Origin: Opitutia bacterium Tous-C8FEB
GTDB taxonomy: Bacteria; Verrucomicrobiota; Verrucomicrobiia; Opitutales; Opitutaceae
DNA length: 62,789 bases
Direction: 5' to 3'
NCBI GenBank assembly: GCA_002304435.1
Contig: NEUZ01000003.1
Coordinates: 1 to 62,789, forward strand
Shown here piece after piece: positions 33,591 through 62,789 of the stretch. The notes under the pieces were generated by a model. It had not been told where the DNA came from. It ran no database searches and saw only the letters and a list, made by a program, of their open reading frames with translations. Positions within the stretch are counted from its first letter, which is position 1. The number at the start of each line of letters is the position of its first letter. The position numbers and the translations under genes are program-made.

Positions 33591-34396
33591 CGCACCGGGA
33601 CGAAGCCGAGCCGGTCGGCGATTGCCTGCCCCCTGGTGCCAAGGGTGAACTCGACAAACCGTGCGGCCTCGCCCGCCGGCTCCCCGTTGCAATAGAAAAA
33701 GGTCGGGCGGGCGTAGGCATACTTCTTGTCTAGGATGTTCTCGCGCGTGGGCGCCACGCCGTTGATGGGCAACACCTTGATCCCGGCCGCCTTGAGGTAA
33801 GCGAGGCCGACGTAGCCGATGCCATTCGGGTTCCGGGCCACTTCCGCCACGATCTGCTCATTGCCGGCGAGCTTCTGGGAGGAGCGGGCGTAGTCGCGCT
33901 TGCGCATCGCGAGGTCCTTCCAGTCTGAATATGTCCCTGAGGACGTGTTGCGGGTGTAGACGGAGATTTTCCCCGGACGGCCGCCCGCGGCGGACCAATC
34001 CGTGACGTCCCCCGTGAAGATCTGCTCGACCTGCCGCGGGTTGAGGCGGGCGATGGGGTTGCGCGCATTGACGATCACGGCGAGGCCGTCGAACGCCACC
34101 ACGATCCCGTTGAGGCGCACCCCCCGAGCGGCGGCGGCGGAGATCTCGGTGGCCTTCGCCTCCCGGGAACTCATCCCGAGTTGGGCCGTGCCCTCGATGA
34201 TGGCCGAGATCCCGGTGGTGGAGCCCTCGGCCGCGATCTCAAATGCGACCCCCGGCCGAGTCGCCTTGTACTCCTCGGCCAAAGTCGGCACGAGCTTCGC
34301 ACCCAGGGTGTCGGATCCCTTGATGACCAGTTTTTCCCCGCGCAGGGCGGGCGCGGCCAACAGGATCAAGGCGAAGAGGAGACGGGACACCTTCAT
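33587..34396 (-). CDS. pstS: Phosphate-binding protein PstS
   Basis: 269-residue periplasmic phosphate-binding protein. The signal peptide is LLFALILLAAPALRG. KLVIKGSDTLGAKLVPTLAEEY is followed by IAAEGSTTGISAIIEGTAQLGMSSREA, whose backbone and hydroxyl groups bind phosphate. VYTRNTSSGTYSDW supplies the second half-site, and NGIGYVGLAYLKAAGIKVL completes the fold. First gene of the pst-pho operon; two 11-bp-phased box arrays lie upstream in the 433-bp gap shared with the divergent receptor. Confidence 0.95.
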   Translation of the reverse strand: MKVSRLLFALILLAAPALRGEKLVIKGSDTLGAKLVPTLAEEYKATRPGVAFEIAAEGSTTGISAIIEGTAQLGMSSREAKATEISAAAARGVRLNGIVVAFDGLAVIVNARNPIARLNPRQVEQIFTGDVTDWSAAGGRPGKISVYTRNTSSGTYSDWKDLAMRKRDYARSSQKLAGNEQIVAEVARNPNGIGYVGLAYLKAAGIKVLPINGVAPTRENILDKKYAYARPTFFYCNGEPAGEAARFVEFTLGTRGQAIADRLGFVPVR

Positions 34397-34596
34397 TAGA
34401 ATGATCGAGTTGCAACTGAACCTGTGGCTAGCGCCGGCCCCGCGCTGCTCGCTCCTAAAATGACGTCAAGCCCCCGCGGCCTGGGTAGACCTCGGAGCAC
34501 CTCTCTGGCAGCGCCCCGATCCGCGCCGACGGCTGCCGCTGGGGCAGCCGCAAGGGAAATCGGGATAAGGATCATCGTCGGAATATGCAGGCTCAT
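34397..34596 (-). other. pstS leader region with a possible 66-codon ORF and a hairpin
   Basis: This belongs to the 433-bp gap between pstS and the first receptor gene. An ORF (ATG at 34596) opens with a hydrophobic stretch, MILIPISLAAAPAAAV, and ends with its TAA overlapping the pstS ATG (TAATG). A perfect 8-bp stem, CGGCTGCC/GGCAGCCG, lies at 34530-34550. The ORF has no visible ribosome-binding site, and its composition is unremarkable after the hydrophobic start. It may be a leader peptide or chance. Confidence 0.3.
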
Positions 34597-34597
34597 T

Positions 34598-34624
34598 GTT
34601 ACAAATCCGCGTCGAATTCGTTAC
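34598..34624. promoter_or_regulatory. Pho-box-like repeat, pstS side of the divergent gap
   Basis: GTTAC at 34598, GCGTC at 34609 and GTTAC at 34620 on the plus strand are exactly 11 bp apart. This matches the TGTCAY direct-repeat periodicity of PhoB sites. It lies about 200 bp upstream of both pstS and the receptor gene at 34830. Confidence 0.65.
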
Positions 34625-34698
34625 GACTGGACGAAGATCCGGCCCTCGCAAGGACCAGCACGCCTTGCGGATCAAGTGAGAGGTCCTCCGCGCCCGGC

Positions 34699-34734
34699 GT
34701 AACCCGCCTGTGACGTACGTGACATTCCCGTTAC
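34699..34734. promoter_or_regulatory. Double Pho-box-like array upstream of TonB receptor 1
   Basis: GTAAC at 34699, GTGAC at 34710, GTGAC at 34719 and GTTAC at 34730 give two pairs with 11-bp phasing, separated by 9 bp. It is 96-131 bp upstream of the receptor start at 34830 and could also serve pstS in the other direction. Confidence 0.7.
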
Positions 34735-34829: not shown

Positions 34830-37616
34830 ATGCTTAACGCACCTACTCGCGTGAGCGGGCTCCTCGCCGCCGCGCTCCTTCCTCTTCTCGCCTTAAATCT
34901 CGCAGCCCAAGGCTCCGGCGGCGTCGCCGGCCGGATCACCGACGCGGGCAACCGGCTCGCGCTCGCGGGCGCCCGGGTGACCGTGTCCGAGACCGGCCTG
35001 ACGACCTTCGCTGACGCCACGGGTGATTACAGCCTGCCGGCCGTACCCGCGGGCAACCGCACCCTGATCTTCAGCTACGTCGGCTACGCGGAATTGACCC
35101 GCAACGTGACCGTCAGCGCCGGCGCCACCGCCCGCGTTGACGTCGCCTTCGGAGCGGACGTGGTCGCGATGGACAAGTTCGTGATCACGGGTAGCGCGGT
35201 TGGCTCGGCCCGGGCGCTCAACCAGCAGCGCGCCGCCGACACCCTCACCAGCATAATCGCCTCGGACGAGATCGGCCGCTTCGCCGACCAGAACGTCGCC
35301 GAGACGATGCAGCGCATCCCCGGTCTCGCGCTCTATCGGGACCAAGGCGAAGGCCGCTTCATCGTGGTCCGCGGCATCCGTCCCGACCTCAACAGCGTGC
35401 GGCTCAACGGTGTGTCGCTGGCCACCCCCGAACGCGGCGACCGGGTCGTGGCCCTCGATGTCCTGCCGACGGATTCGCTGGCAACGGTGGAGGTCACCAA
35501 GGTCCCGACCCCGGATATGGACGCGGACGGGTTGGGCGGGAGCATCAACGTGCGCACCCGCAGTGCCTTCGATGCCGACGGCCGCCAACTGCAGGCGACG
35601 GCGCAGGGCCAGTACAATCACCTCGCCGAGCGCTTCAGCAGCAAGTTCAGCGCGACTTACGGGGACCGTTCCGCGGACGGCAAGTGGGGCTTCATCTTCT
35701 CGCCAACCTGGCAGGCGCGCCGCTTTGCCACCAACAACTTCGAGGAGGACGGTGGTTACGAACTGCGGGCGGTTCCGGGCGCACCCGCCGGCACCCGCGC
35801 GCCGTTCCTAGTCGGCATTGCGTTTCGCGAGTACGAGATCACCCGCACGCGCTACGGCGCCTCCTCCGCGCTGGAATTCCGGCCCGACGCCCAGACCAGC
35901 CTCTACGTCCGCGGCACCTTTTCCCAGTTCAACGACCACGAGATCCGCTATGTTTACACGCTCCCGTTCGCGGAGGGCACCGTGAGCAACTTGAGTGACA
36001 CCGGCGCGACGATCTCCGGCGTTCGGCGGGAGCGGCACGATATGCGTTACCGCCAAAAAGATCAGCAGATCCTCGCACTCGTGACAGGCTTCGAACGCAC
36101 CGCAGGCAACTGGCAGCTCGATGGCCGGCTGGGATGGTCCAAAGGCGAGGAGCAGCGGCCCGACGAAGTGACCGTCCGTTTCCGCAAACCGAACCGCAAC
36201 AGCACTTGGTCCTACTCGTTCGGCCCGGGGATGTATGCCCCCTCCTTCAGCGCCCCGACGGCGATCGTGTCCGACCCGTCCCAGTACAGCGAGATCAGCC
36301 GCTTCCGAGTGGTGAACTCCCCCGGCGACGAGTCCGAGCTCAACGTGGGCGTGAACGCACGCCGCAACCTGCGCCTCGCCGAAGCACCGGCTTACGTAAA
36401 GTTCGGCCTACAGCTGCGGGAGAAGGATAAGTCGGCGGCCAACGAGACCGTCGACCACGCCGTGCCCGCCTCTTTCACCTTCGCGGCAATGCGCGAGGGG
36501 CAGACCCCTGATGATTACCCGTTCTTCTCCTCGGGATACCGCGCCAGTACCCCCAAGGTGCTGCAGGCCTTCTATGGCAACCGCGCTGGCTTCACTCCTA
36601 CCCGCCTCCTGCTGGAGAGCGTGCAGGATGACTGGGAGTCGACCGAGGACATCACCGCCGCCTACCTGATGGGCGGCACGACCGTGGGTCGCCTGAACGT
36701 GCTGGCGGGCGCGCGCCTCGAGCGGACCCGCTACGAAAATCGCGGCAATGAGCTCACGGGCACGACCGTGCGCGCCGCACGCCGCGGTCGCAGCTACGAG
36801 AATCTCCTCCCCGGGCTGCATCTGCGCTACGACCTCGACCGCCAGACCGTCGTCCGCGCCTCTTGGAGCAACTCCCTCGCCCGACCCTCCTTCGACGACA
36901 GCGCCCTACGCCGGAGCGTGAACGACACCGCCCGCCGCGTCACCGAGGGCAACCCCCGCCTGCTCCCGCTGGAGTCGGTCAACTGGGACGCCTCCGTCGA
37001 GCGCTACCTACCTTCCCTCGGGCTCGTCTCGGCCGCCGTCTTCCGGAAGAACATCTCGAACTTCACCTACCAGCGGGAGCTGCCGGGCGGCGACCCCGCT
37101 ACCGGCTACACCCTCACGACTTTCGTCAATGGTCCCAAGGGGCACATCGAGGGCCTCGAGCTCGCCTGGCAGCAGCAATTCCGCAGCCTGCCCGCGCCCT
37201 TCAACGGACTTGGCTTCATGGCCAACTACACCCGCAGCAATAGCGAGGCGACCTACCCGACCCGGCCCGGCGAGCGCATCGAATTCATCGGCCAGTCCCG
37301 CGAGATCGGCAACGCCGCCCTGACCTTCGAGCGCGGCGGCCTGTTCCTGCGCCTCGCGCTAAACTTCCGCACGCCGCGGCTCCGCGAGGATGAACCCCTC
37401 GGCGGCGACGCCACCACGGACCGCTGGGTGGACGATCACCGCCAGCTCGACCTCTCCGCGAGCTACCGCCTGAACCGGAACTGGGAAATCTACGCCGAGG
37501 CGCTCAACCTCACGGACGAGCCGTTCCGCGTCTACTTCGGGAAGACCTCCTCCCGATTCGCGCAATTCGAGGAGTACGGTCTCTCCGCAAACTTCGGCGT
37601 CCGCTGGCGCCTGTGA
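34830..37616 (+). CDS. TonB-dependent receptor 1 (carboxypeptidase-regulatory-like domain)
   Basis: 928-residue outer-membrane receptor. A signal peptide (LLAAALLPLLALNLAAQ) is followed by a carboxypeptidase-regulatory-like domain at about 30-105 (GGVAGRITDAGNRLALAGARVTVSE, GDYSLPAVPAGNRTL). The plug begins near MDKFVITGSA and contains NVAETMQRIPG, and the 22-strand barrel ends in FGVRWRL. VEVTKVPTPDMDADGLGGSINVRTR is typical of the Xanthomonas/Caulobacter-type receptor family. The substrate is unknown. Divergence from pstS and the box array suggest uptake of a phosphorus compound (inference). A bidirectional terminator follows. Confidence 0.93.
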   Translation: MLNAPTRVSGLLAAALLPLLALNLAAQGSGGVAGRITDAGNRLALAGARVTVSETGLTTFADATGDYSLPAVPAGNRTLIFSYVGYAELTRNVTVSAGATARVDVAFGADVVAMDKFVITGSAVGSARALNQQRAADTLTSIIASDEIGRFADQNVAETMQRIPGLALYRDQGEGRFIVVRGIRPDLNSVRLNGVSLATPERGDRVVALDVLPTDSLATVEVTKVPTPDMDADGLGGSINVRTRSAFDADGRQLQATAQGQYNHLAERFSSKFSATYGDRSADGKWGFIFSPTWQARRFATNNFEEDGGYELRAVPGAPAGTRAPFLVGIAFREYEITRTRYGASSALEFRPDAQTSLYVRGTFSQFNDHEIRYVYTLPFAEGTVSNLSDTGATISGVRRERHDMRYRQKDQQILALVTGFERTAGNWQLDGRLGWSKGEEQRPDEVTVRFRKPNRNSTWSYSFGPGMYAPSFSAPTAIVSDPSQYSEISRFRVVNSPGDESELNVGVNARRNLRLAEAPAYVKFGLQLREKDKSAANETVDHAVPASFTFAAMREGQTPDDYPFFSSGYRASTPKVLQAFYGNRAGFTPTRLLLESVQDDWESTEDITAAYLMGGTTVGRLNVLAGARLERTRYENRGNELTGTTVRAARRGRSYENLLPGLHLRYDLDRQTVVRASWSNSLARPSFDDSALRRSVNDTARRVTEGNPRLLPLESVNWDASVERYLPSLGLVSAAVFRKNISNFTYQRELPGGDPATGYTLTTFVNGPKGHIEGLELAWQQQFRSLPAPFNGLGFMANYTRSNSEATYPTRPGERIEFIGQSREIGNAALTFERGGLFLRLALNFRTPRLREDEPLGGDATTDRWVDDHRQLDLSASYRLNRNWEIYAEALNLTDEPFRVYFGKTSSRFAQFEEYGLSANFGVRWRL

Positions 37617-37720: not shown

Positions 37721-39301
37721 TCAGCGTCCCTCCAGCAGGGCGTCGGCGATTTCCCGGTCACTCCGGCAGCGCGGCATCTTGTTCTGCCCGCCCCACTTCC
37801 CCCGGCGCTGGAGCCAGCCCGCAAAGGTGCCGTCCGGCACCAGCCGAACTTCCGGACTCTCTAGGCCGCCTCCCTTCCGCTTCGCCTCGTAATCCTCATT
37901 CCGCCGCTGCAGCCCGGCGTCCAGTAAGGAAGTCAACTGGTCCGCCTGCAGACCCGGCCGGGGCGCAGCGAGCTCGAGGAGCCATTCGTGTCGGCCCCGG
38001 CGCCCCGCGCCCCCTTCTCCGGTAAAACGCGGTGCCACGTGGAAGTTCGCCACGTCTAGTCCCAGCACTCCGGCCGCCTCGGCGAGCGTCTCCGTGACCT
38101 CGTGCTCGATCACGTGCTCGCCAAACGCGCTCAACTGCAGGCGGGTGCGCCCGCGGTAGACCAGCCGCGGCGGGTCGACCGTGACGAAGCGGACGACGTC
38201 CCCGATCACGTAGCGGCAGAGGCCCGCCGGAGTGGACAAAAGAAGGACATAATCGACGCCAGGCGAGACCTCGGCCAGCGGCACGATGCGACCTGCGAGT
38301 TCGCCCAGCCGCGACTCGTCGTAATCCGCGAGGGGCAGGAATTCGTGGTAAATCCCCGCGTCCGCCAGCAGCCGGAGACCCGCCACGGGCTCGGTGTCCT
38401 GGGCCGCAATGAACCCTTCCGAGGCCGGGTAGACCTCGTGGAAGTGGACCCCCGGACCGGCGACCGCGGCGAGTTGGCGGGCGAACGGGCCCAGGGGTAC
38501 GCCGCCGTGGACAATGCACTCCAGGCGAGGCCACACCTCGCGCAGCACGGATCGTCCGGTCGCGGCCAGCACCTTCTCCGCCAAAATGAGGAGCCAACTC
38601 GGGATGCCCGCGACCAATGTGAGATCCCGCGCGCGCGTGCGCGCCACGATCGCGTCGAGCTTCGCCGGCCAGTCCGCGACGAGCGCGATCTCCCGCCCCG
38701 GCTCATACAGGTGGCGCTCCACCCAACCCGGGAGGTTGAGGGCCGTGATGCCGCTTAGGTCTCCGCACAGGATCGGGGGGCCGCCGGCCGCGGGCAGCGG
38801 CGTGAGGACAGTGGAGCCGCCCAGAAACAGGTGGCGGCCACGGAAGACATCCGCGTGGCCCACGCGCCCCGCGTGGAAGAGCAGCGAGAACAAGCCGGTA
38901 CGTCGGAAATGAACCAGCATCTCCGCGGTGACGGGCAGGTACTTTGTGCGGCCGGCGGTGGTGCCGGACGAGACCGCGAAGTAAGGGCACCGCCCGCGCC
39001 AGAGCACGTCAGCCTCCCCGGCCTTCATCCGCTCGATCCACGGCAGGAATTCTTCGTAACGCCGCGGCGGGAGGGCACGCCACGCGGCCGGGGTCATCCC
39101 GGGCCGCAGGCCGTACTCCCGGCCGAAGGCCGTGCCCGCCCAGCCGCGACACAGTCCACTCCAGGCCTCAACCTGCCCCACCCGCGCGGCATCGGGCGAG
39201 GCCAGACGAGCGCGCAAACGTTCCCCGGCGATGCCAGCTCCCGCGGCGAGCAGTCCCCGCCACCACGGCCGGCGGGGCAGTTCGGAGGCCGCGGCACTCA
39301 T
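37721..39301 (-). CDS. GH3-family acyl-adenylate/amide synthetase
   Basis: 526 residues of the GH3 branch of the ANL adenylating superfamily, whose plant members conjugate acyl acids to amino acids. The ATP motif YFAVSSGTTAGRTKYLPV lies near residues 108-125, motif II is YPASEGFIAAQDTE, and motif III is GLCRYVIGDVVRFV. No membrane segment was seen; length fits the family (about 500-600). The start at 39301 overlaps the hydrolase stop (ATGA). The longer reading to 39625 is antisense-like noise. With the hydrolase it forms a two-gene operon behind a triple Pho-box-like repeat, so it is probably induced in phosphate starvation. The bacterial substrate is unknown. Confidence 0.88.
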   Translation of the reverse strand: MSAAASELPRRPWWRGLLAAGAGIAGERLRARLASPDAARVGQVEAWSGLCRGWAGTAFGREYGLRPGMTPAAWRALPPRRYEEFLPWIERMKAGEADVLWRGRCPYFAVSSGTTAGRTKYLPVTAEMLVHFRRTGLFSLLFHAGRVGHADVFRGRHLFLGGSTVLTPLPAAGGPPILCGDLSGITALNLPGWVERHLYEPGREIALVADWPAKLDAIVARTRARDLTLVAGIPSWLLILAEKVLAATGRSVLREVWPRLECIVHGGVPLGPFARQLAAVAGPGVHFHEVYPASEGFIAAQDTEPVAGLRLLADAGIYHEFLPLADYDESRLGELAGRIVPLAEVSPGVDYVLLLSTPAGLCRYVIGDVVRFVTVDPPRLVYRGRTRLQLSAFGEHVIEHEVTETLAEAAGVLGLDVANFHVAPRFTGEGGAGRRGRHEWLLELAAPRPGLQADQLTSLLDAGLQRRNEDYEAKRKGGGLESPEVRLVPDGTFAGWLQRRGKWGGQNKMPRCRSDREIADALLEGR

Positions 39302-40395
39302 GCCGCGAGCGGCCACCGCTGCGCGCGCAACCGAGCGTAAAAGGCCTGCAGCGGCGGCAGGAACTCGAACACGTGGAAGACCAGCGAAGCGTGCTGCACT
39401 GGAGGCTGGCCGGGCGCGGCCCGAACCTCCCGCACGTTGCCGTCCGGAAAATAAGCGCGGTGCGCGTGGCGGAACGCGAACAGCGAGGGCGCCGCCGCGT
39501 CGAGCATCCCCTCCTCCCGCTCCGCGAACAGCACGAGGGCCGGGGCCGTGCTGAGCGGGAGCAGACCTGGCGTGAAATAGCCGGTCGGGGAACACATCTC
39601 CCTCATCGCCTGCACCCGAGCACAAGCGCCCTCGTCAGTGATGCCCCGAATCGTGCCTAAGACGCCCTCGTGCAGGCGATGCAGCTCGCGCGCGGTCATC
39701 AGCCGGCGGAGCGCGAGCTTGTTCTGGGCCCCCGCCTCGAACATCCGCGCGAACAGCACCCGCGCGCGCTCAACCGCCGCGGCGCCAGGGCTAGCCGCCT
39801 CCTGCAGGAACGGCTTCAGGGCCCGGCCGATCAGGGTTCCCGGCTTTCCGGTACCGGGAGGCACCACGTCCTCCACGCAGGCGACGGGACTCACCAGCAC
39901 CACGCCGCCCAACGGGAGCGTGACGCCTCGCGCCCGCGCCCGTCGCAACCATTCCAGCGCCAGACCCGCGCCGAAACTCACCGCGAACACGACGGGGCGC
40001 TGCCCGCGCCGCTTTAGGTCCTCGAGCAGGTCATCCAGTTGCGCGAGGAGCAGCGGGAGCGAGAACCCGTCGGCCGGATAGTGGATGGAATAGACGTCCC
40101 CGGAAGAGAGTAGGAAGCGCCGGAGCAGGAAGATCTGCTCCCCCGCGTCGGGGACGAAGCCGCCGAGCACGATGGTGGGGACGCTACCCCGACCCGCTTC
40201 CCGCCGGATCTCGGCCCGGGGCGCGGTGCCGCCACAAGACGCCGCGGACGGTTCCACCGCCGGCCGGAAGGGCAGCGCGCCCGCCCGCACCCGCCGGTCC
40301 TCCACGGTCCGCACTAGAGTGTGCAGCGAGCGCAGGGGGGCGGCGTGCAGCAGCGAATACCAAGTCTGGGGCGGGGCGAAGCGCGGCAGAGGCAT
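39298..40395 (-). CDS. Alpha/beta hydrolase
   Basis: 365 residues with an alpha/beta-hydrolase fold. GGFVPDAGEQIFLLRRFLLSSGDVYSIHYPA gives the first strands and oxyanion region, and the nucleophile elbow is FAVSFGAGLALEW (GxSxG-like, S-F-G). A late Asp is in the region LVLFAEREEGMLD, and a His follows in QPPVQHASLVFHVFEF. There is no signal peptide. Start 40395 was chosen over 40431 because MPLPRFAPPQTW opens the conserved part. It is translationally coupled to the GH3 gene and is the first gene after the box at 40458-40484. It could be an esterase or lipase acting on the same acyl pool. Confidence 0.82.
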   Translation of the reverse strand: MPLPRFAPPQTWYSLLHAAPLRSLHTLVRTVEDRRVRAGALPFRPAVEPSAASCGGTAPRAEIRREAGRGSVPTIVLGGFVPDAGEQIFLLRRFLLSSGDVYSIHYPADGFSLPLLLAQLDDLLEDLKRRGQRPVVFAVSFGAGLALEWLRRARARGVTLPLGGVVLVSPVACVEDVVPPGTGKPGTLIGRALKPFLQEAASPGAAAVERARVLFARMFEAGAQNKLALRRLMTARELHRLHEGVLGTIRGITDEGACARVQAMREMCSPTGYFTPGLLPLSTAPALVLFAEREEGMLDAAAPSLFAFRHAHRAYFPDGNVREVRAAPGQPPVQHASLVFHVFEFLPPLQAFYARLRAQRWPLAA

Positions 40396-40457: not shown

Positions 40458-40484
40458 GTCACCGTTTCGCCACCGTTCCGTCAC
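40458..40484. promoter_or_regulatory. Triple Pho-box-like repeat of the hydrolase-GH3 operon
   Basis: GTCAC at 40458, GCCAC at 40469 and GTCAC at 40480 (plus strand) are spaced exactly 11 bp, with flanks also repeating (CCGTTTC / CCGTTCC). It lies 63-89 bp upstream of the hydrolase start, in the 105-bp gap after the phytase gene. One of the clearest boxes in the window. Confidence 0.78.
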
Positions 40485-40500
40485 GCCGGTGGCGAGCGGG

Positions 40501-41586: not shown

Positions 41587-41616
41587 GGTTTCCGACGCCG
41601 CGCAAGCGCCGGGGCC

Positions 41617-41632
41617 GTCACGTAATCTTAAC
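41617..41632. promoter_or_regulatory. Pho-box-like repeat upstream of the phytase gene
   Basis: Plus strand GTCAC at 41617 and TTAAC at 41628, 11 bp apart. It sits between the divergent phytase gene (minus) and a small plus-strand ORF at 41687, close enough to serve either. Confidence 0.6.
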
Positions 41633-41686
41633 GTGTGCCCGCACCCCGATTCTTGCCGTGACCGGACGCGCCGGCAGGGTCGCCGC

Positions 41687-43248: not shown

Positions 43249-43253
43249 CAGCT

Positions 43254-45677: not shown

Positions 45678-45687
45678 CTTCGGATGA

Positions 45688-47529: not shown

Positions 47530-47553
47530 CGGAAGCCAGCGTGCCGGGTGCAG

Positions 47554-47580
47554 GTCACAAACCGGCGGCGGTGGAGTTAC
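47554..47580. promoter_or_regulatory. Pho-box-like repeat near the phytase-like esterase
   Basis: GTCAC at 47554 and GTTAC at 47576 on the plus strand are 22 bp (two turns) apart; the middle repeat position is degenerate (GCGGC at 47565). It begins 25 bp upstream of the esterase start. Confidence 0.55.
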
Positions 47581-47606
47581 AATCTCCCCATTTTTCCCCC
47601 GGATAT

Positions 47607-47622: not shown

Positions 47623-47691
47623 GCCCGCGGATTGCCCCGACGCGCCGGCCTCCGCTCGCTCGCTACACCGCGCCCTCAAGCGCACTTCCCT

Positions 47692-51712: not shown

Positions 51713-51750
51713 GTGACCTACTCTTAAACGGAGCGTGACGCGTCTGTAAC
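51713..51750. promoter_or_regulatory. Pho-box-like array upstream of TonB receptor 3
   Basis: GTGAC at 51713, a weak TTAAA at 51724, GTGAC at 51735 and GTAAC at 51746 (plus strand) keep an 11-bp phase over four turns. On the minus strand, towards receptor 3, they read GTTAC-GTCAC-TTTAA-GTCAC, in E. coli Pho-box orientation. Confidence 0.72.
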
Positions 51751-51901: not shown

Positions 51902-51942
51902 GTGACCGCACCGCCACACGAAAGGGCCAGGTGTGGCGGTCA
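51902..51942 (+). other. Hairpin upstream of TonB receptor 4
   Basis: CCGCCACAC (51911-51919) pairs with GTGTGGCGG (51931-51939), and TGACCG/GGTCA bases can extend it; TTCAC at 51891 and GTGAA at 51944 may add an outer stem. It ends about 100 bp before the receptor start. The rest of the 384-bp gap shows GTAAC at 51976 and 51992 but without 11-bp phase. Confidence 0.45.
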
Positions 51943-52044
51943 GGTGAATTCCGCGGGCCTCGCGTCGGATGCACCGTAACTTTGCGAGACAGTAACCGGG
52001 TCGACGCGGGATCGCCATCCAGCCCGGGCATTCTCCCGCGGCCT

Positions 52045-55036: not shown

Positions 55037-55052
55037 TTCACCGCGACGTAAC
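55037..55052. promoter_or_regulatory. Pho-box-like repeat upstream of receptor 5 operon
   Basis: TTCAC at 55037 and GTAAC at 55048, 11 bp apart, 45-60 bp upstream of the receptor 5 start and its two phosphatase genes. Confidence 0.6.
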
Positions 55053-55096
55053 GCTGGCGCCATCGTCCGTCCTCATTGCTGTGGCAACATCCTCGG

Positions 55097-57877
55097 ATGT
55101 CCTCCTCGTTCGCCACGCTCACCGTCTTGCTCCTGCTTGGCCTGTACGCTTCGACGCGCCTGCCCGCCCAAACCGGCTCGCTCGGGGCGATCCGCGGCAC
55201 CGTGGTGAACGAAGCCACGGGCAACTTCGTGGAGGGCGCCGTAGTCATACTCTCCGGTACCAGCCGCCCGGAGGTCACGGACAGCCGCGGGAGCTTCTAC
55301 TTCGGCGGGGTACCCGCGGGCGCGTGGCGGCTTACCGCGCGTTCCGCCGGCAACTCGCCCGGGGAAGCCACCGTGGCGGTGACGACGGGTGGGACCACGG
55401 CCGTGACCCTCCGGCTGGGTTCGGAGGTGGTGGCGATGGAGCGGCTGATGGTGACGGCGCAGGCCGAGGGCCAGGCGCAGGCCCTCAATGTGCAGCGCAA
55501 CGCCGAGAACATCCGGAAGGTCGTCTCGCAGGACGCACTCGCCAATTCGCGGCTCGGCGAGGTCGGGGAAGTCCTGATGGCCCTGCCGGGGCTTTATCTG
55601 GAAATCAGCACCCACCAGCCCAGCCGGCCGGTGATCCGCGGCCTAGGACCGGAGTTCAACTCCATCACCTTTGACGGGGTGCGGATCGGCAACACGAACA
55701 ACGACCGGGCGGACGGGGTGAGCGGTTACCCCGCCGAGAGCCTCGCGCGCGTGGAGCTGATGAAATCAGTGACCCCGGACATGGAGGGCGACGCGATCGG
55801 CGGCAGCATCAACCTCGTCTCCCGCCGCGCCTTCGACCTGAGCGAGCGCCTGCTGAAGCTCAATCTCGGCGGCGCCTACAACCGCCAGCAGCGGAACTGG
55901 GATCAGCAGTTCAACCTAGAGTACTCCGACCGCTTCGGGCCCGGGGGACGCCTCGGGATCTACTCCTCCCTGAACCACTACCGTTCCGACCGCGGCTACC
56001 ACACCTCCAGCATCAGCTACCAGGTCGACGCGGCCGACAACTTCAACATCTCCACGTACACGCTGCAGGATCGGATCGAGGACGATTCCTGGAAGCTCAA
56101 GTACACCGGGAGCGTGGACTACAAGCTGGGTGAGACCAGCACCCTCTGGTTCCGGGGGTTGTACAGCAACGACACCCGTTACCTTGAGGATTACCGCACG
56201 ATTTACCGGCCCGGCACCCGGACCGCGATCACCCCGGATTCCGCCAGCTCTCGCAATGGCCGGGTCGACACCGACCGCCAGTACCGCGAGCCCGTCAGCA
56301 CCAGCGGCCAACTCGCGGCCGGGCTGGAGAGCCGGCAGGGGCGCTGGACCCTCGACGCCCGGGTCACCTATGGCCGCGCGACCAATCACTACGAGGAGAC
56401 CTTCACGCCGGTCTTCTCCTTCAACGGCACCGATCTTTCCTACGACCGCCGCGTACGCGAGTTCCCCGTCTTCCGCGTCGACAACGGGATCCGCCTCGCG
56501 GACGCCTCCCGGCTCGCCCACCGCTCGATCGCCCGCACGCAGCATCCCTCGCGGGACCAAGAGTTCACCTTCGACACCAACGTCCGCCGTGCCCTCGACG
56601 GCCTGCCCTTCGCCGCCTACCTCAAGACCGGGGCGCGGGTGAAGCTCCGGAGCTGGGTCTTCGGCGGGGACACCGAGCTGGGCAACTGGACCTACACCGG
56701 CCCGCGGACCCCGGCGGAATTATCCGAGACCTACGTGAACGACCGATTCTTCCGGCAGAGCGGCGGGCCGACGGGGATGGCCGCCGTCTACCCGAAAATG
56801 AGTTCTTTCCTCGAGGCGTTCTGGACTCGCCGGGGCGATTTCCGGCGAGATGAAAACGCGTCCGCCATCCTGATCGAGTCCAACCGGCGGGCGACCACCG
56901 AGGAGATCACCGCCGGCTACCTGATGGGCGGGGCCACCCTCGGCCGCCTGAGCGTCGTCACCGGCGCCCGCCTCGAGGACACCCGCTTCGGCGGCAAGGC
57001 GCGCCAGCTGGACACCCCGCGCGGGATCCTAACCTCCAGTCGGGTAACGCAAAACTCGGCGAGCTACACCAACCTGCTGCCCGGCTTGCACTTGAATTAC
57101 GGAGCTACGCCCGCCCTAGTGCTGCGGCTCTCCGTCCACCGGAGTGTCGCCCGGCCCAGCCCCACCGCCCTCCTGCCCTCGCGGCGGGTGGACGATGAGG
57201 CGCGGACGATCAGCGAGGGCAACCCGGACCTGCGCGTGACGGAGGCGGAAAATCTCGATCTGAGCGCCGAATACTACCTGAGGCCGCTCGGCGTGATCTC
57301 CGCGAGCGTGTTCCGAAAGCGGATCCGCGGCTTCTACTTCAGCACCGCCTCCACGGTAACCGGGGGCGAATACGATGGCTACCGCCTGACCCGCACCGAG
57401 ATGGGCCAAGGCGGCACCGTGGAGGGCCTAGAGCTGGATTGGCAGCAGCGCCTGACCTTCCTCCCCGGCGCCCTAAGCGGACTGGCCGTCGGCGCCAACG
57501 GCACGTGGATCGACTCCGTGGGGCGTTATCCCAACCGACCGGGCGCTAACCTCACCTTTCGCGGCACCGCCCGACGCACCGGCAACTTCAACCTCTCCTA
57601 TGTTCGCCAGGGCCTTGACCTGCGCGTCTTTCACAACTTCCGCGGCGATTATCTGAGCGGCGTCGGCGCCCGTCCGGCGCTTGACGTGTACGAGCAGGAC
57701 CGCGCGACGCTGGACTTCTCCGCCAAGTATCGGTTTAGCCGCCGGCTCTCCGCGTACTTCAACGCGAAGAATCTCACCGACGCGCCCAAAATCGCCTTCC
57801 AGGGGAATCCCTCCAACCCGACTGGCGTGCGCTACTACGATCTCTCGTTCAACTTCGGCGTCACCCGCGAATTCTGA
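55097..57877 (+). CDS. TonB-dependent receptor 5 (carboxypeptidase-regulatory-like domain)
   Basis: 926-residue outer-membrane receptor. The signal peptide is LTVLLLLGLYASTRLPAQ. A carboxypeptidase-regulatory-like domain (AIRGTVVNEATGNFVEGAVVILSG, GSFYFGGVPAGAWRLTA) is followed by the plug MERLMVTAQAEG, then EVLMALPGLYLEIS, IRGLGPEFNSITFDGVRIG and TPDMEGDAIGGSINLVSR. The barrel ends FGVTREF. Start 55097 follows CCTCGG. It leads an apparent operon with two secreted phosphoesterases, so a phosphate ester or the organic product is its likely cargo. Confidence 0.94.
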   Translation: MSSSFATLTVLLLLGLYASTRLPAQTGSLGAIRGTVVNEATGNFVEGAVVILSGTSRPEVTDSRGSFYFGGVPAGAWRLTARSAGNSPGEATVAVTTGGTTAVTLRLGSEVVAMERLMVTAQAEGQAQALNVQRNAENIRKVVSQDALANSRLGEVGEVLMALPGLYLEISTHQPSRPVIRGLGPEFNSITFDGVRIGNTNNDRADGVSGYPAESLARVELMKSVTPDMEGDAIGGSINLVSRRAFDLSERLLKLNLGGAYNRQQRNWDQQFNLEYSDRFGPGGRLGIYSSLNHYRSDRGYHTSSISYQVDAADNFNISTYTLQDRIEDDSWKLKYTGSVDYKLGETSTLWFRGLYSNDTRYLEDYRTIYRPGTRTAITPDSASSRNGRVDTDRQYREPVSTSGQLAAGLESRQGRWTLDARVTYGRATNHYEETFTPVFSFNGTDLSYDRRVREFPVFRVDNGIRLADASRLAHRSIARTQHPSRDQEFTFDTNVRRALDGLPFAAYLKTGARVKLRSWVFGGDTELGNWTYTGPRTPAELSETYVNDRFFRQSGGPTGMAAVYPKMSSFLEAFWTRRGDFRRDENASAILIESNRRATTEEITAGYLMGGATLGRLSVVTGARLEDTRFGGKARQLDTPRGILTSSRVTQNSASYTNLLPGLHLNYGATPALVLRLSVHRSVARPSPTALLPSRRVDDEARTISEGNPDLRVTEAENLDLSAEYYLRPLGVISASVFRKRIRGFYFSTASTVTGGEYDGYRLTRTEMGQGGTVEGLELDWQQRLTFLPGALSGLAVGANGTWIDSVGRYPNRPGANLTFRGTARRTGNFNLSYVRQGLDLRVFHNFRGDYLSGVGARPALDVYEQDRATLDFSAKYRFSRRLSAYFNAKNLTDAPKIAFQGNPSNPTGVRYYDLSFNFGVTREF

Positions 57878-57911
57878 ACCGGCGCCGCGCTCCCGATTCC
57901 CTTCCCTCAAT

Positions 57912-58973
57912 ATGCCCCGTCCACGTCTCCCGCTCCTCCTTGCCTGTCTCTGCACCCTGGGTTTCTCCGGCCGCACCGTGGCCCTCGAGCCCCCTCCGCC
58001 CGGGAGCTTCACCGTCGTGGTGATTCCGGACACGCAGGGCTACCGGGGACGCGGCGCCAAGGCCACGCCCGAAAGCACCGATCCGGTGACGAATCCGGTC
58101 TTCCGGAACCATACCCACTGGATCCGCGAGAACCTTAGCGCGCAGAACATCGTCTTCGTCTCGCACGTGGGGGATATCGTGGACGTGAACCACGAGGACC
58201 AATGGCAGGTGGCCCGCGACTGCCTCGACGTGATCCACGGCCTAGTCCCTTATAGTCTCACGGTCGGCAATCACGATATGACCGCGCAGGGGGACGCCTC
58301 CCTGTTCCAACGCCACTTCCCGCGCGCCCGCTTCTCGTCCTTCCCCTGGTACGCCGGCAGCTACACCCACGGGCGTCCCGACCAGCGGGTCTCCGCCGAC
58401 AACGTCAACAGCCACCAGTTGTTCTCCGCCGGCGGAATCGATTTCGTACACCTCAGCCTCGAGTGCAATTCGCCCGATGAGGTGTTGGCGTGGGCGGGCG
58501 AGGTGCTCACCCGGCATCGGGACCGCCACGCTCTGATCACGACGCATATGGATCTCGGGCCGATCGAGAAGCCGGCCACCAACGAGGGTTACTTCGCGGA
58601 TCCGAAGGGACGGATGCGCTGGACGAAGATCCACGGCCCCCGCGGAAACTCTCCCGCCCAGATCTGGAACAAGCTCTACTCCAGACACGACAACGTGCGG
58701 CTGATCTTCTCCGGGGACCAAAGCCGCACCGTGTCCTCGCGCCTGACCAACCCGGGCCAAGGGGGCCGCCCCGTGCACGCGCTGATGTCCGACTACACGT
58801 CCTCCGGGCCCCTGCGGCTCTACCGCTTCCTGCCGGCGCGGGAGGAGATCCAGGTCATCACCTACGACACCACTCGTCGCGAGATCGTAACCTCCACCCG
58901 CTTGCTTCCCGACCCCGCCTTTCACCAATTCTCAATTCCCTTCCCCGTCCGCTCTTCCTCCGCCCCGCGATGA
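57912..58973 (+). CDS. Secreted calcineurin-type phosphoesterase lacking the GHxH motif
   Basis: 353 residues with a signal peptide (LLLACLCTLGFSGRTVA). Metallophosphoesterase motifs are VIPDTQGY (D-x-Q variant of DxH), HVGDIVD, VGNHD and TTHMDLG. The final GHxH is replaced by IFSGDQSRT, which removes the usual metal-binding His there. The C-terminal ALMSDYTSSGPLRLYRFLPAREEIQVITYD fits a secreted metallophosphatase family. It starts 34 bp after receptor 5 and overlaps the purple acid phosphatase gene by 4 bp (ATGA). Probably a periplasmic phosphatase, though metal loading may differ. Confidence 0.87.
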   Translation: MPRPRLPLLLACLCTLGFSGRTVALEPPPPGSFTVVVIPDTQGYRGRGAKATPESTDPVTNPVFRNHTHWIRENLSAQNIVFVSHVGDIVDVNHEDQWQVARDCLDVIHGLVPYSLTVGNHDMTAQGDASLFQRHFPRARFSSFPWYAGSYTHGRPDQRVSADNVNSHQLFSAGGIDFVHLSLECNSPDEVLAWAGEVLTRHRDRHALITTHMDLGPIEKPATNEGYFADPKGRMRWTKIHGPRGNSPAQIWNKLYSRHDNVRLIFSGDQSRTVSSRLTNPGQGGRPVHALMSDYTSSGPLRLYRFLPAREEIQVITYDTTRREIVTSTRLLPDPAFHQFSIPFPVRSSSAPR

Positions 58974-60325
58974 AAATCCTCCCCGCCCTCGCCTTCTGCT
59001 CGATCGTCGCCGGCCACGTCGCCAGCGCGCAGCCCGCCCCCGCCGTCTTCCCGGAGAAGGAGGCGCACGCGCCCCGGCCGCTCCCGGATCGCATCGTGCT
59101 GACCTGGCGCGGCGACCCGGCCTCCTCGATGGCAGTCACGTGGCGGACCGACCTTTCCGTGACCCGCGCAACCGCCGAGGTGACCCGGGCTCTCGACTCC
59201 GGCAAAGAGTTGAAGGGAATCCCCGTGCCGGTGCGGTCCGAGCGCTACGAGTCCAGCCTCGGTCCCGCCCTCGCCCACTCGGCCGAGTTCACCGGACTAG
59301 CGCCGAGCACCCTTTACACCTACCGCGTGGGCGACGGCGTGAACTGGAGCGAGTGGTTCCACTTCCGCACCGCAGCCGCGGGTCCCGCGCGCTTCACGTT
59401 CATCTATTTCGGTGACGCCCAAAACGACGTCCGCACCCATTGGTCGCGGGTCTTCCGCGAGGCGTTTCAGGAGGCGCCGCGGGCAGCCTTCACCCTCCAC
59501 GCGGGCGACCTGATCGACAAGGCCCACAACGATGCCCAGTGGGGCGAATGGCTGGGGGCCCCGGGCTGGGTCAACGCCACCATCCCGGTTGTCCCCACGC
59601 CGGGCAACCACGAGTACGCGAAGCTCGACGAGAAGGACGCGTCGGCCCCCCGCATCCTCAGCCGCAACTGGCGGCCGCAGTTCACCCTGCCGGAAAACGG
59701 TCCCCGCGAACTGCCCACCCTGACCGAGACCGTGTACTACCTCGATTACCAAGGCGCGCGCATCGTCTCGCTGAACTCCAACGACCTTCCGGCCGAACAG
59801 GTGCCGTGGCTGCGCGAGGTGCTGCGCAACAACCCGCAGCGCTGGACCATCCTCACCTTCCACCACCCGATCTTCTCGCCCGCCCGGAACCGCGATAACG
59901 CGAAGCTGCGGGAGCTCTGGAAGCCCGTCTTCGACGAGTTCAAGGTCGACCTCGTGCTCACGGGCCACGATCACACCTATGCACGCAGCGGGGACGTGGC
60001 GCCGGGACGCACCGGAGCCGAGGTCAATCTGCCCAAGGGCTACCGCCAGGCCTACGATCCCGCGATCGGCACGGTCTATGTCGTCTCGGTCAGCGGCCCC
60101 AAGATGTACGACCTGTCGCCCGGCGACGCCTGGGCGGTGCGGTTCGCCGAGGACACCCAGCTGTTCCAGCTGATCACGGTCGACGGAGACGCGCTTCGCT
60201 ACGAGGCGCGCACCGCCACCAACCGCCTCTACGACGCGTTTACCCTGCGGAAGCGGGCGGGCCAGCCGAACTTGCTGGAGGAAACCCTGCCGCGGGAACG
60301 ACGCCGCGCCGCCCGGCAACCCTGA
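58970..60325 (+). CDS. Purple-acid-phosphatase-like metallophosphatase
   Basis: 451 residues. The signal peptide (ALAFCSIVAGHVASAQ) is followed by the fibronectin-like PAP N-domain (RIVLTWRGDPASSMAVTWRTD, HSAEFTGLAPSTLYTYRVGDG). The catalytic domain has all metal motifs: FIYFGDAQND, HAGDLIDKA, TPGNHEYAKL, ILTFHHPIFS and VLTGHDHTYARS. Such enzymes remove phosphate from organic esters outside the cytoplasm. It is the last gene of the receptor 5 operon and converges with ppk1, whose stop lies 12 bp away. Confidence 0.93.
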   Translation: MKILPALAFCSIVAGHVASAQPAPAVFPEKEAHAPRPLPDRIVLTWRGDPASSMAVTWRTDLSVTRATAEVTRALDSGKELKGIPVPVRSERYESSLGPALAHSAEFTGLAPSTLYTYRVGDGVNWSEWFHFRTAAAGPARFTFIYFGDAQNDVRTHWSRVFREAFQEAPRAAFTLHAGDLIDKAHNDAQWGEWLGAPGWVNATIPVVPTPGNHEYAKLDEKDASAPRILSRNWRPQFTLPENGPRELPTLTETVYYLDYQGARIVSLNSNDLPAEQVPWLREVLRNNPQRWTILTFHHPIFSPARNRDNAKLRELWKPVFDEFKVDLVLTGHDHTYARSGDVAPGRTGAEVNLPKGYRQAYDPAIGTVYVVSVSGPKMYDLSPGDAWAVRFAEDTQLFQLITVDGDALRYEARTATNRLYDAFTLRKRAGQPNLLEETLPRERRRAARQP

Positions 60326-60337
60326 TTGCGCCCTCGG

Positions 60338-62479
60338 TCAGGGCACCCCGGCCACCGTTCGCGCCTGCGCCTGCGCCATAAACTGGCGCTGGGCCTGGAA
60401 CAGCTCCGCGCCCTCCGCGGAGGCCACGGGGACGTAGGAGCCATCCGGCTGAAGAGCCGCCGCATCCGCCGTGTCGCGGAGCTCGGCGGCGAGAATCTCG
60501 TCCAAAATGCGCTGTCGCAGGGCGGGATCCTCCACGGGAAACACCGCCTCGACGCGTCGGAAGAAGTTGCGCGGCATCCAGTCGGCACTCCCGGCGTACA
60601 CCACCGGCGAGCCCCCCTGCCCGAAGACGAAAATCCGGGCGTGCTCGAGAAAACGCCCAACCAGATTGCGGACCCGGATATTTTCGCTGAGCCCCTTGAC
60701 CCCCGGCACAAGGCAGCAGGTGGAACGGACGATAAGGTCGATCTGCACGCCAGCTTGGGAGGCCGCGTACAGGGCCTCGATCGCGTGCGGGTCCACCAGT
60801 TTGTTCATTTTGGCGATAATGCGCCCCGGGCGGCCGGCCCGAGCGTGCGCCATCTCCGCCGCGATCAGCTCGATAATCCGCGCGTGCAGATTGAACGGTG
60901 CCACCAGCAGGTGGTGGAACTCCGGCGCCCGACCGAGGCCCGTGAGCGAGTTAAAGAGCTGCGCCACCTCAGCGGTGAGGTTTTCCCGCGCCGTGAGCAG
61001 ACTGAGGTCCGTGTAGAGGCGCGCCGTGCGCGGGTTGTAGTTGCCCGTGCCCAAATGCACGTAGCGCCGGAGCTGCCCGCCCTCGCGGCGGACCACGAGG
61101 CAGCACTTGCAGTGCGTCTTGTGCCCCACCACGCCGTAGACAACGTGGACCCCCGCCTCCTCCAGCTCGCGGGCCCACTTGATATTGTTGGCCTCGTCGA
61201 ACCGCGCCATCAGCTCCACCAGCGCGGTCACCTGCTTCCCCGCGAGGGAGGCCTCGATCAGCGCCTCAATGATCGGGGAATCGCCGCTGGTCCGGTAGAG
61301 CGTCTGCTTGATCGCGAGTACTTCCGGGTCGCGCGCCGCCTCCTGCACGAAGGCCACCACCGGCGCGAAACTGTCGTACGGGTGGTGCAGCAGAAGGTCG
61401 CGCTCGCGGACGGCATCGAAGACCGGGCGCCCGCCGGCCAGCGCCGCGCAGTCTGCGGCGGCGAAGGGCGGGTACTTCAGGTCCGGCCGATCAACGAGGT
61501 CGTGGAGTGCCATCAGCCGCAGAAAATTCAAGGGGGCCGGCTGGTCGTAGACGGCGTCTTCCGGCAGGCCGAGGTGGCGCACGAGCTCGGCGAGCGCCCA
61601 AGCGTCCACGCCCTGCTCGACCTCGAGACGCACCGCGGCGCCGCGGCGCAGGTTGCGCAGCTCGTCCTCGATCTTTTTGAGCAGATTTTCCGCCTCCTCC
61701 TCGTCGATGTAGAGGTCACTGTTGCGGGTGACGCGGAACGCGTGGGCCCCGAGCACCTGGTAGCCGGGGAAGAGCTCTCCCACGCAGAGTTTGAGGATCT
61801 CGCTCAGAAACAGAAAGCGCTCGGGACCGGGCTCCCCGGGACAAAGGCGGAGGATCCGCGGCAGGCTGCGCGGAACCGGCACGATGCTGAGCACCGGCTC
61901 CGCGGCGGCATCCTCCTCCTGTCGCAGCAGTACCAGCAGGCTCAGGGTCTTGTTGCCCAGCAGCGGGAAGGGATGCGCCTGATCGACCGCGAGCGGCGTG
62001 AGCACCGGTTGCACCTGTTCCCGAAAATGACGGTGGACCCAAGCGAGCTCCGCCGCGTCGAGTTGGTGGGTGGATCGGAACAAGAGCCGCTCCGCCGCAA
62101 GCGACGGGACCAGCTCCTCCTGCCAGCAGCGGTGCTGCGCCGCCACCATCGCGCCAACCGCGACCCGGACCCGCCGGAGCTGCTCGCGCGGCGTTAGCCC
62201 GTCGAGGCTCAGCGGCGCGGTCTCCGAGTCCGCCTGCTGCCGCAGCCCCGCCACCCGGATTTCGAAGAACTCATCCAGGTTGGAGCTGGCGATCGCGAGA
62301 AACTTGACCCGCTCCAGCAGCGGGTTGGCGGGGTGGCGCGCTTGGTCCAGCACCCGCTGGTTGAACGCCAGCCAGCTCTGTTCGCGATTGCCGAAGCGGG
62401 CGGGATCGCCGGCCGGGACGGCAGGCTCGGCGCGGACCGGGTGACGGAGGCGGGGGGCGGACTTGCGGGCGGGACTCAC
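60338..62479 (-). CDS. ppk1: Polyphosphate kinase 1
   Basis: 713-residue enzyme that reversibly polymerises the ATP gamma-phosphate into polyphosphate. Domain order N, H, C1, C2 is visible: FGNREQSWLAFNQRVLDQA, FLAIASSNLDEFFEIRVAGL, HPFPLLGNKTLSLLV, then IKQTLYRTSGDSPII. The phospho-acceptor His is in VGHKTHCKCCLVVRR, followed by YVHLGTGNYNP and EHARIFVFG (second PLD-type His), then AGSADWMPRN. It starts with GTG at 62479. A GTNAC pair with 11-bp phase lies 51 bp upstream. The gene should be induced with the phosphate genes to store the phosphate gained. Confidence 0.96.
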   Translation of the reverse strand: MSPARKSAPRLRHPVRAEPAVPAGDPARFGNREQSWLAFNQRVLDQARHPANPLLERVKFLAIASSNLDEFFEIRVAGLRQQADSETAPLSLDGLTPREQLRRVRVAVGAMVAAQHRCWQEELVPSLAAERLLFRSTHQLDAAELAWVHRHFREQVQPVLTPLAVDQAHPFPLLGNKTLSLLVLLRQEEDAAAEPVLSIVPVPRSLPRILRLCPGEPGPERFLFLSEILKLCVGELFPGYQVLGAHAFRVTRNSDLYIDEEEAENLLKKIEDELRNLRRGAAVRLEVEQGVDAWALAELVRHLGLPEDAVYDQPAPLNFLRLMALHDLVDRPDLKYPPFAAADCAALAGGRPVFDAVRERDLLLHHPYDSFAPVVAFVQEAARDPEVLAIKQTLYRTSGDSPIIEALIEASLAGKQVTALVELMARFDEANNIKWARELEEAGVHVVYGVVGHKTHCKCCLVVRREGGQLRRYVHLGTGNYNPRTARLYTDLSLLTARENLTAEVAQLFNSLTGLGRAPEFHHLLVAPFNLHARIIELIAAEMAHARAGRPGRIIAKMNKLVDPHAIEALYAASQAGVQIDLIVRSTCCLVPGVKGLSENIRVRNLVGRFLEHARIFVFGQGGSPVVYAGSADWMPRNFFRRVEAVFPVEDPALRQRILDEILAAELRDTADAAALQPDGSYVPVASAEGAELFQAQRQFMAQAQARTVAGVP

Positions 62480-62529
62480 GGCAAAGGGTTAACTGGGGGC
62501 GGCGACGAGGAACGAGGCCGAAACCCGCC

Positions 62530-62545
62530 GTAACGCAATTGTCAC
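62530..62545. promoter_or_regulatory. Pho-box-like repeat upstream of ppk1
   Basis: GTAAC at 62530 and GTCAC at 62541, 11 bp apart (minus strand GTGAC-N6-GTTAC). It lies 51-66 bp upstream of the ppk1 GTG and 18 bp from the end of the next gene. Confidence 0.68.
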
Positions 62546-62563
62546 TCGCGCCTCGCCGCGAGG

Positions 62564-62789
62564 TCAGGCCTCGGCGAGTTCCGCCCCCGGCTCGATGCTA
62601 TCACGATCCGGCAGGGGGAAACGCCGCACAAAAGAGGCAAAATCCAGCAGCTCAAAACGGCCGTCCCAATGCTCGACGATCGCGGTGAGCGACTCCACCC
62701 AGTCGCCGGAATTAAGGTAATGGATGTCGCCGATGCGTTTGTCCGCCGCGGTGTGGATGTGGCCGCACATCACGCCCTGGCAGCCCTTT
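62564..62789 (-). CDS. PlcP/LpxH-like metallophosphoesterase, C-terminal part
   Basis: The gene runs off the right edge; 74 residues remain, in frame to the last base. It shows the C-terminal calcineurin motif GVMCGHIHTAADKR (GHxH) and then HYLNSGDWVESLTAIVEHWDG, the block shared by the UDP-diacylglucosamine-hydrolase-like family. That family includes PlcP, the phospholipase C that strips head groups for lipid remodelling in phosphate-starved bacteria. Next to ppk1 in a phosphate island the PlcP role is attractive but unproven, since the catalytic N-terminus and any partner glycosyltransferase are outside the window. Confidence 0.75.
   Translation of the reverse strand, partial: KGCQGVMCGHIHTAADKRIGDIHYLNSGDWVESLTAIVEHWDGRFELLDFASFVRRFPLPDRDSIEPGAELAEA

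Follow-up and report, generated by a model that had tools for sequence, protein, structure and literature searches.

A predicted phosphate-starvation island with a probable lineage-specific Pho box beside the pst operon of an Opitutaceae bacterium

Results

The pst operon and the gene island to its right

The stretch of DNA analyzed here (the window; 62,789 bases) is the whole of contig C23 in the genome of Opitutia bacterium Tous-C8FEB, a 2.17-Mb assembly in 96 contigs that is 70% complete, and it carries a pstS-pstC-pstA-pstB-phoU-phoB-phoR operon with, to its right, a 28-kb island of genes for TonB-dependent receptors, a phytase, phosphoesterases and polyphosphate kinase (Table 1). Promoter gaps of this island hold tandem half-sites with an 11-bp period, and the island very probably constitutes a phosphate-starvation regulon around the pstSCAB-phoU-phoB-phoR operon, with these boxes as predicted PhoB sites; we infer PhoB as the binder, as well as a phosphate response and its direction. 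The response-regulator gene of the pst operon is phoB, here as in many relatives. Its product combines PF00072 and PF00486, i.e. a receiver with an OmpR-type winged helix, and is encoded beside phoR, phoU and pst, and a sequence search with its DNA-binding domain returned structures of E. coli PhoB.

Stretches covering about 18% of the genome were read, and the remainder was searched by pattern, protein or family; genes and gaps other than the named ones were taken from a simple codon-score caller.

Box sites in the window

A reading of the window made from sequence only, hereafter the sequence-only reading, had placed GTNAC-type half-sites with 11-bp phasing in the promoter gaps of the island, ahead of nine named genes. 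Such half-sites were indeed commoner there than expected by chance, but strict pairs were confined to three gaps (34699 and 34719; 51735; 62530), the remaining island sites needing degenerate half-sites (GCCAC, TTAAC, TTCAC or GACGC). The nine genes were found to share six gaps (pstS/receptor 1, hydrolase, phytase, phytase-like/TPR, receptor 3/receptor 4 and ppk1), plus a weak seventh before receptor 5. Its remark that the half-site occurs in both orientations is empty, since GTNAC is its own reverse complement, and direction must therefore be read from the middle base and the spacer.

The exact pair GTNAC-N6-GTNAC occurred at 11 places in the 2.17-Mb genome, four of them in the 28-kb island and all four in gaps, and a backwards control pattern occurred at 15 places; in the window, exact GTNAC pairs 10 or 12 bp apart were absent. 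Elsewhere in the genome, exact pairs on contigs C20 and C50 were covered by open frames, those on C45 and C82 lay in gaps, and the one at C13:10016 lay within a GC-rich inverted repeat. Over the spacing range from 6 to 35 bp, GTNAC pairs of 80 pst loci peaked at 11 bp (95 pairs) and 22 bp (90 pairs), every other spacing having 1 to 24; a reversed-letter control gave 5 and 3 at these two spacings and 1 to 25 over the whole range. These spacing peaks, together with the matrix columns described below, define a box of at least two direct half-sites with an 11-nt period.

An expectation-maximisation motif obtained from the 400 bp upstream of pstS (74 non-redundant sequences) read as the end of a coding gene and was rejected. 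As a porin-like gene precedes pstS in relatives, training was moved to the gap before the porin gene and the pstS/pstC gap, and a 21-bp matrix was trained on 146 regions around pstS of relatives, with the window and its nearest three (L013-L015) excluded. Since the pstS/pstC gap sites may be a different element, a second and stricter 33-bp matrix was trained without them, on 32 non-redundant porin-pstS promoters of relatives.

With the 21-bp matrix at a score of at least 9, six of the nine island promoter gaps gave a match, compared with none of nine in the left half of the window and none of 96 in a same-genome background (Fisher p = 5e-8; minimum gap length 30 bp in the window and 50 bp in the background), and the one island gap without a gene start gave none. 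The gap matches lay at 34587-34619 (four), 34718, 40458, 40469, 41617, 47553, 51735 and 62530. The background comprised 15 of 20 fetched stretches (289.8 kb, 22.9 kb of it gaps), the other five having been chosen for an exact pair that they hold and hence excluded, and it contained nine matches at this threshold, none of them in a gap. Using the 33-bp matrix, the seven best window matches all fell in island gaps (five gaps), with a best in-gene score of 2.3; nothing scored above 0 in the left half, and seven matches did so in the 290 kb of background (maximum 2.6). The sequence-only reading had named equal frequency inside genes or in unrelated promoters as an outcome that would speak against it, and this was not seen in the window and 290 kb of genome.

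Block B, facing pstS, was the best window match of both matrices (24.1 at 34597 for the 21-bp matrix, 39.3 for the 33-bp matrix) and is kept in L013, L014 and L015, in which the 11-9-11 layout of block A is also found. When the pstS/receptor 1 gap was compared between the window and these three loci, clear conservation was confined to the two box blocks and some bases next to them. In the hydrolase gap, the phased half-sites are kept in the window, L013 and a genome of the same genus (G081), and the bases between them differ. The half-sites before receptor 5 are kept in G081 with an altered spacer, the flank being conserved too; for the receptor 3/4, receptor 4/5 and ppk1 gaps, flanks are likewise conserved with G081, making these gaps less informative.

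The E. coli consensus performed poorly in this window. The window held no exact TGTCA pair corresponding to the E. coli CTGTCAT half-site, and of the 17 window matches to the consensus with at most four mismatches, 12 were called in genes and four lay in boxed island gaps (34708, 40445, 47605 and 62528).

Table 1. Genes and box sites of the window (scores from the 21-bp matrix unless stated; boxes described as facing away point away from the gene or operon named)
Feature	Position	Strand	Remarks
pstS-pstC-pstA-pstB-phoU-phoB-phoR operon (sensor, transporter, regulator)	27605..34396	-	Pfam; names from families and order
Box block B, facing pstS	34585..34640	-	GTAAC / GACGC / GTAAC, 11-bp steps, 10 bp to -10-like CATATT
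Box block A, near receptor 1	34699..34734		GTAAC-11-GTGAC-9-GTGAC-11-GTTAC; exact pairs
TonB-dependent receptor 1	34830..37616	+	TIGR01782, 578 bits (cut-off 310)
Hydrolase-like gene and GH3 acyl-adenylating enzyme	37721..40395	-	GH3 family match; hydrolase serine-elbow motif by eye
Box of hydrolase-GH3	40458..40506	+	GTCAC/GCCAC/GTCAC, 11-bp steps, further GTTAC; faces away from operon; 11.1 and 10.2; 9.1 with 33-bp matrix
Beta-propeller phytase	40501..41586	-	PF02333, 5e-26
Phytase box	41615..41636	+	GTCAC-N6-TTAAC; faces away; 17.1 at 41617, 17.2 in G081
Phytase-like esterase, receptor 2, class V aminotransferase	42016..47529	-	One operon by spacing
Boxes between phytase-like and TPR genes	47553..47625		At 47553: 9.0; 15.1 with 33-bp matrix; same gap in G081: 15.6
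TPR-repeat protein	47656..48573	+	
TonB-dependent receptor 3	48583..51660	-	
Box between receptors 3 and 4	51735..51750	+	Exact pair; 11.3; 18.1 at the matching place of G081
TonB-dependent receptor 4	51931..54939	+	
Weak box before receptor 5	55037..55055	+	TTCAC-N6-GTAAC; 4.8-4.9, below threshold
Receptor 5, calcineurin-like phosphoesterase, purple-acid-phosphatase-like protein	55076..60325	+	
Polyphosphate kinase ppk1	60338..62479	-	
ppk1 box	62530..62545	+	Exact pair; 14.1; faces away from gene
PlcP/LpxH-like metallophosphoesterase, 3' end	62564..62789	-	Cut by contig end

Among the five TonB-dependent receptors of the island, receptors 1 and 4 belong to the TIGR01782 (Xanthomonas/Caulobacter) family; two calcineurin-like phosphoesterases, one of them purple-acid-phosphatase-like, are encoded to the right of the pst operon. 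The hydrolase-like gene gave no match to a Pfam or NCBIfam family, and neither Rfam nor tRNA scans gave a match in the window. Most relatives of PstS carried the titles Opitutaceae, Opitutae or Verrucomicrobia. The place held in the window by the divergent TonB-dependent receptor 1 is taken in several relatives by a porin gene preceding pstS, and Porin_O_P, looked for in the 70% complete genome of the window, was not found.

Motif and promoter layout in relatives

The consensus across the family is approximately GTCAC-N6-GCCAC-N6-GTAACAAT, and the lineage-specific Pho box proposed in the sequence-only reading was supported, in the form of GTMAC-like tandem half-sites 11 bp apart that are found across the family. 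Porin-pstS promoters (63 sites, 52 non-redundant at a 75% cut, scanned on the pst strand) read tTTGTCACA.g..cGcCAC..gTTCGTAACAAT, followed about 10 bp on by TAt..T. In the 33-bp matrix the A and T of TAnnnT stood at fixed columns, 27 and 31, with 1.75 and 1.80 bits. A -10 element thus lies about 10 bp after the box in the porin-pstS promoters of relatives, and the corresponding CATATT at pstS of the window was recognized by eye. Outside the masked training regions of 77 loci, there were 63 matches of at least 13 in 131 kb of gaps versus 8 in 1,039 kb of coding sequence, a count in which overlaps are unmerged and some matches are pst-promoter sites beyond the mask. Taken with the gap counts above and the orthologue counts below, this places the boxes non-randomly in promoter gaps of phosphate genes.

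In 28 non-redundant relatives (L013-L092) a box was also seen in the pstS/pstC gap, about 735-1100 bases after the pstS start, and in most of these a conserved CTTGACc follows within a hairpin-like stretch, sometimes with a T run. From its sequence, this element looks like an attenuator or a terminator hairpin.

Reach of the predicted regulon

Orthologue loci were limited to the 30 best matches per gene (101 genomes had a ppk1 match); the counts take in related species and are not independent events. At ppk1, a box of at least 11 was present upstream in 23 of 29 loci with upstream sequence, including the window and two very near relatives, and in 0/30 downstream and 0/30 inside the gene. Glycolipid-type GT4 glycosyltransferase loci gave 23/30 upstream, with none of 30 either downstream or inside. 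At GH3 the corresponding figure was 0/29 directly upstream, most GH3 and phytase genes standing behind a receptor or hydrolase gene. Most phytase genes follow a receptor gene, and the phytase count given in the Discussion covers the stretch directly upstream of the phytase gene. In this direct-upstream test, rows L148, L163 and L190 had upstream stretches mis-set from short contigs, and removal of L178 changed the hydrolase count from 11/26 to 10/25.

The hydrolase gene adjoins GH3 in 26 of 30 fetched GH3 loci. GH3 matches were present in 107 of 150 family genomes, and in L246 and L248 the hydrolase lies near GT4; the GH3/hydrolase pair might have a role in lipid remodelling.

Of the box-bearing genes in relatives that lack a match in the window, ten were submitted to Pfam and assigned as two PhoU_div, three GT4, three porins (Porin_5/Porin_O_P), a sulfate-permease-family protein and an RND transporter. 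The sulfate-permease-family transporter (L025:6314-8425) is found behind a strong box near pst and may move phosphate or another oxyanion. Within the genome of the window, a Na/Pi cotransporter gene on contig C89 has a box 55-71 bp upstream, which scores 17.2 with the 21-bp matrix (16.7 in G081) and 1.0 with the 33-bp matrix (8.2 in G081). A stronger box, at C44:13488, lies in a gap that has a TonB-dependent receptor gene on one side and, divergently, a small gene accompanied by an ABC1-kinase gene on the other; in its better orientation this box faces the small gene/ABC1-kinase side. At L112:10440-11528, a sigma-70 factor gene is divergent to a Na/Pi cotransporter gene across a boxed gap.

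With boxes on C89 and C44, the block is not the whole regulon, and the proposal of the sequence-only reading that the Pho regulon is kept in one block rather than scattered was not upheld: ppk1, phytase and GH3 are also dispersed in all four closed genomes examined (G004, G013, G064 and G113, single contigs in which all three were found), lying about 118 kb or more apart, where the GH3 matches of G064 and G113 are 37% and 44% identical and may be paralogues. Full scatter is countered by ppk1-GH3 distances of 2.5 kb in G139 and about 11 kb in G034, and by phytase-GH3 distances of roughly 50 to 80 kb in G023, G040, G074 and G095. Receptor 1, ppk1, phytase, receptors 4 and 5 or the metallophosphoesterase are neighbours of pst in other relatives, in varying order. 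The island is thus compact in near relatives of the window and forms partial clusters elsewhere.

The island beyond the window and the glycolipid-type operon

In G081 the block extends from receptor 1, truncated by a contig end, as far as the metallophosphoesterase; its gene order is that of the window, and boxes occupy the same gaps except that of receptor 5, for which the best match lies elsewhere. The block continues there with a GT4 gene, a fused MGDG-synthase-like glycosyltransferase/diacylglycerol kinase and the metallophosphoesterase, of which the last gene of the window is the corresponding tail. Contig C35 of the same genome as the window begins inside a metallophosphoesterase gene, behind diacylglycerol kinase and two glycosyltransferase genes, and is therefore, judging from the gene order of G081, probably the next contig after the window. 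Its boxes, at 3761 and 3796, face the operon. The glycosyltransferase and diacylglycerol kinase are two genes on C35 (538-2615) and one fused gene in G081 (L204:7029-9107).

We read this as a putative operon for phospholipid-to-glycolipid remodelling of PlcP-like kind, in which a metallophosphoesterase and a glycolipid-type glycosyltransferase stand behind a Pho box; its glycolipid function is proposed by analogy. MGDG_synth matched above its Pfam cut-off, and the NCBIfam glycolipid models scored below theirs. No PlcP match was returned for the metallophosphoesterase, and the LpxH-type model NF003743 gave 43 bits versus a cut-off of 134.

A box-like site was also noted where the phosphoesterase gene ends, some 95 bp ahead of the purple-acid-phosphatase-like gene (17.9 at 58876 in the window; 14.3 at 22535 in G081), which could be an internal promoter or reflect coding constraint.

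Discussion

A Pho regulon beside pstSCAB-phoU-phoB-phoR, as the sequence-only reading had it, is supported by a matrix trained outside the window and by conservation within the family. The sites, their period, their bias towards gaps, their conservation in part of those gaps, the genes that they precede and the -10 position at pst were all obtained by computation. When phosphate is scarce, PhoR would be expected to phosphorylate PhoB, which would then bind head-to-tail to the tandem 11-bp half-sites; predicted targets are pst, the outer-membrane receptors, phytase, phosphatases, ppk1, hydrolase-GH3 and the glycolipid remodelling operon on the probable next contig. At promoters of pst type, the last half-site would end about 10 bp before the -10 element, with the box in place of a -35.

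Several observations weigh against this reading. The regulator had TIGR02154 (PhoB) as its best NCBIfam match at 246.3 bits, below the cut-off of 296.2, and PhoR likewise reached 282 bits with TIGR02966 against a cut-off of 334. Five window matches of at least 9 with the 21-bp matrix fall inside genes, namely the site at 58876 (17.9) and those at 42075 (14.4), 30300, 29827 and 35754, as do three in predicted genes of G081 (22535, 23817 and 30227). The stricter 33-bp matrix missed the ppk1 site, no box was found in the 35-bp gap upstream of pstC in the window, and at a threshold of 9 the ppk1 controls gave matches in 3/30 downstream and 1/30 inside. Boxes of at least 11 were present at only 10/25 hydrolase loci, and phytase loci had one directly upstream in 4/30 (one being a mis-set short-contig row) and downstream in 2/30, the two downstream matches being the hydrolase boxes of the window and G081. 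Finally, in E. coli most PhoB-bound sites lie inside genes and have no detectable effect, as described in PMC10294691, so that a site alone is no proof of regulation.

The orientation of the boxes raises a further alternative, in which the Pho boxes are real but activation comes only from forward ones; those facing away, at ppk1, hydrolase-GH3 and phytase, would act in repression or be left over from promoters once held in common with a divergent glycolipid operon. By matrix, GT4 boxes face the gene in 23/23 loci, and ppk1 boxes face away in 19/23, of which eight have a divergent upstream gene; hydrolase boxes of at least 11 face away in 9/10. A GT4 match is moreover found divergent within about 300 bp of ppk1 in G040, G074 and G096, as is a GT4 gene in L079, and a single box is common to the hydrolase and GT4 genes of G021 (L177, L248). 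In the other 11 of the 19, however, the upstream gene has the same direction as ppk1 and no divergent gene explains the away-facing box, which a mere remnant does not readily account for. We regard this alternative as rather less likely than not.

Somewhat more doubtful still is that PhoB of Opitutaceae could serve two kinds of promoter, one with the box facing the gene (pst, Na/Pi cotransporter, glycolipid) and another with the box facing away (ppk1, hydrolase-GH3), orientation setting the sign or timing of the response. At pst the gene-facing tandem would replace the -35, and at ppk1 the box may be fixed 13-14 bp (by eye) upstream of a separate, complete promoter. In 14 non-redundant sequences, columns downstream of the ppk1 box averaged 0.24 bits (maximum 0.83) and those upstream of it 0.16 (0.66), with the downstream part extending into the gene start, and a promoter pattern written after looking at these sequences fitted 6/19 downstream and 0/19 upstream, which is only suggestive of a separate promoter. 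If PhoB does work at two kinds of promoter, polyphosphate making and GH3 chemistry would be switched differently from scavenging and lipid swapping.

That the boxes instead belong to another OmpR/PhoB-family regulator of envelope and receptor genes, with a phosphate link given only by neighbourhood, seems improbable. Many OmpR-family regulators bind tandem 10-11 bp repeats, and such a regulator would be in keeping with the sub-cut-off PhoB score, the sulfate-permease-family gene and RND transporter among box-bearing neighbours in relatives, and the better orientation of the C44 box towards the small gene and ABC1-kinase gene. Yet training had drawn on pst regions, and the resulting motif was afterwards detected at genes for ppk1, the Na/Pi cotransporter, PhoU_div, porins and glycolipid-type enzymes; moreover, the response regulator of the pst operon is phoB, with PhoB as its best family match. 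Chance, with favourable gaps picked for a short palindrome, can practically be dismissed: single GTNAC is frequent (175 in the window) and the nine sites of the sequence-only reading were chosen by eye, but the background counts, the spacing peaks at 11 and 22 bp and the conservation contradict it.

Comparing the predicted PhoB boxes and their genes with known systems, TonB-dependent receptors of this kind are PhoB-linked in Caulobacter, and receptors 1 and 4 belong to the same TIGR01782 family; here, five receptors lie in one block with phytase, ppk1 and pst, and the box differs. In E. coli promoters of pst type, the PhoB box stands in for the -35, about 10 bp before the -10. The box described here resembles the E. 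coli Pho box in its 11-bp period and in ending, at pst, about 10 bp before the -10, but the half-site is CTGTCAT there and GTMAC/GCCAC-like here, with three half-sites at porin-pstS promoters. PMC4415409 describes the Pho box as tandem direct half-sites with an 11-bp period, and its consensus as varying between species, with 11-nt repeats and operators of several repeats. The PhoP box of Streptomyces coelicolor, GTTCACC, is similar in its 11-nt repeats and differs in half-site. According to PMC4796936, plcP clusters of marine bacteria combine a metallophosphoesterase with glycosyltransferases downstream of a Pho box, and a verrucomicrobium also has a PlcP homologue. The operon described here shares that arrangement of metallophosphoesterase and glycosyltransferases behind a Pho box, but its order is GT4, MGDG-synthase-like glycosyltransferase, diacylglycerol kinase and phosphoesterase, and it lies beside a phytase-ppk1 island. 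No account of a Verrucomicrobiota Pho box was found in the open-access literature, of which the matching papers were only partly surveyed.

Verrucomicrobiota are common in soils and lakes, and a box tested in silico would allow phosphate-stress genes to be predicted for large numbers of uncultured genomes. Among the genes that it highlights are receptors with a possible role in the import of organic phosphate and a glycolipid-type operon that may spare phospholipid, and it puts the GH3-hydrolase pair under the same predicted switch.

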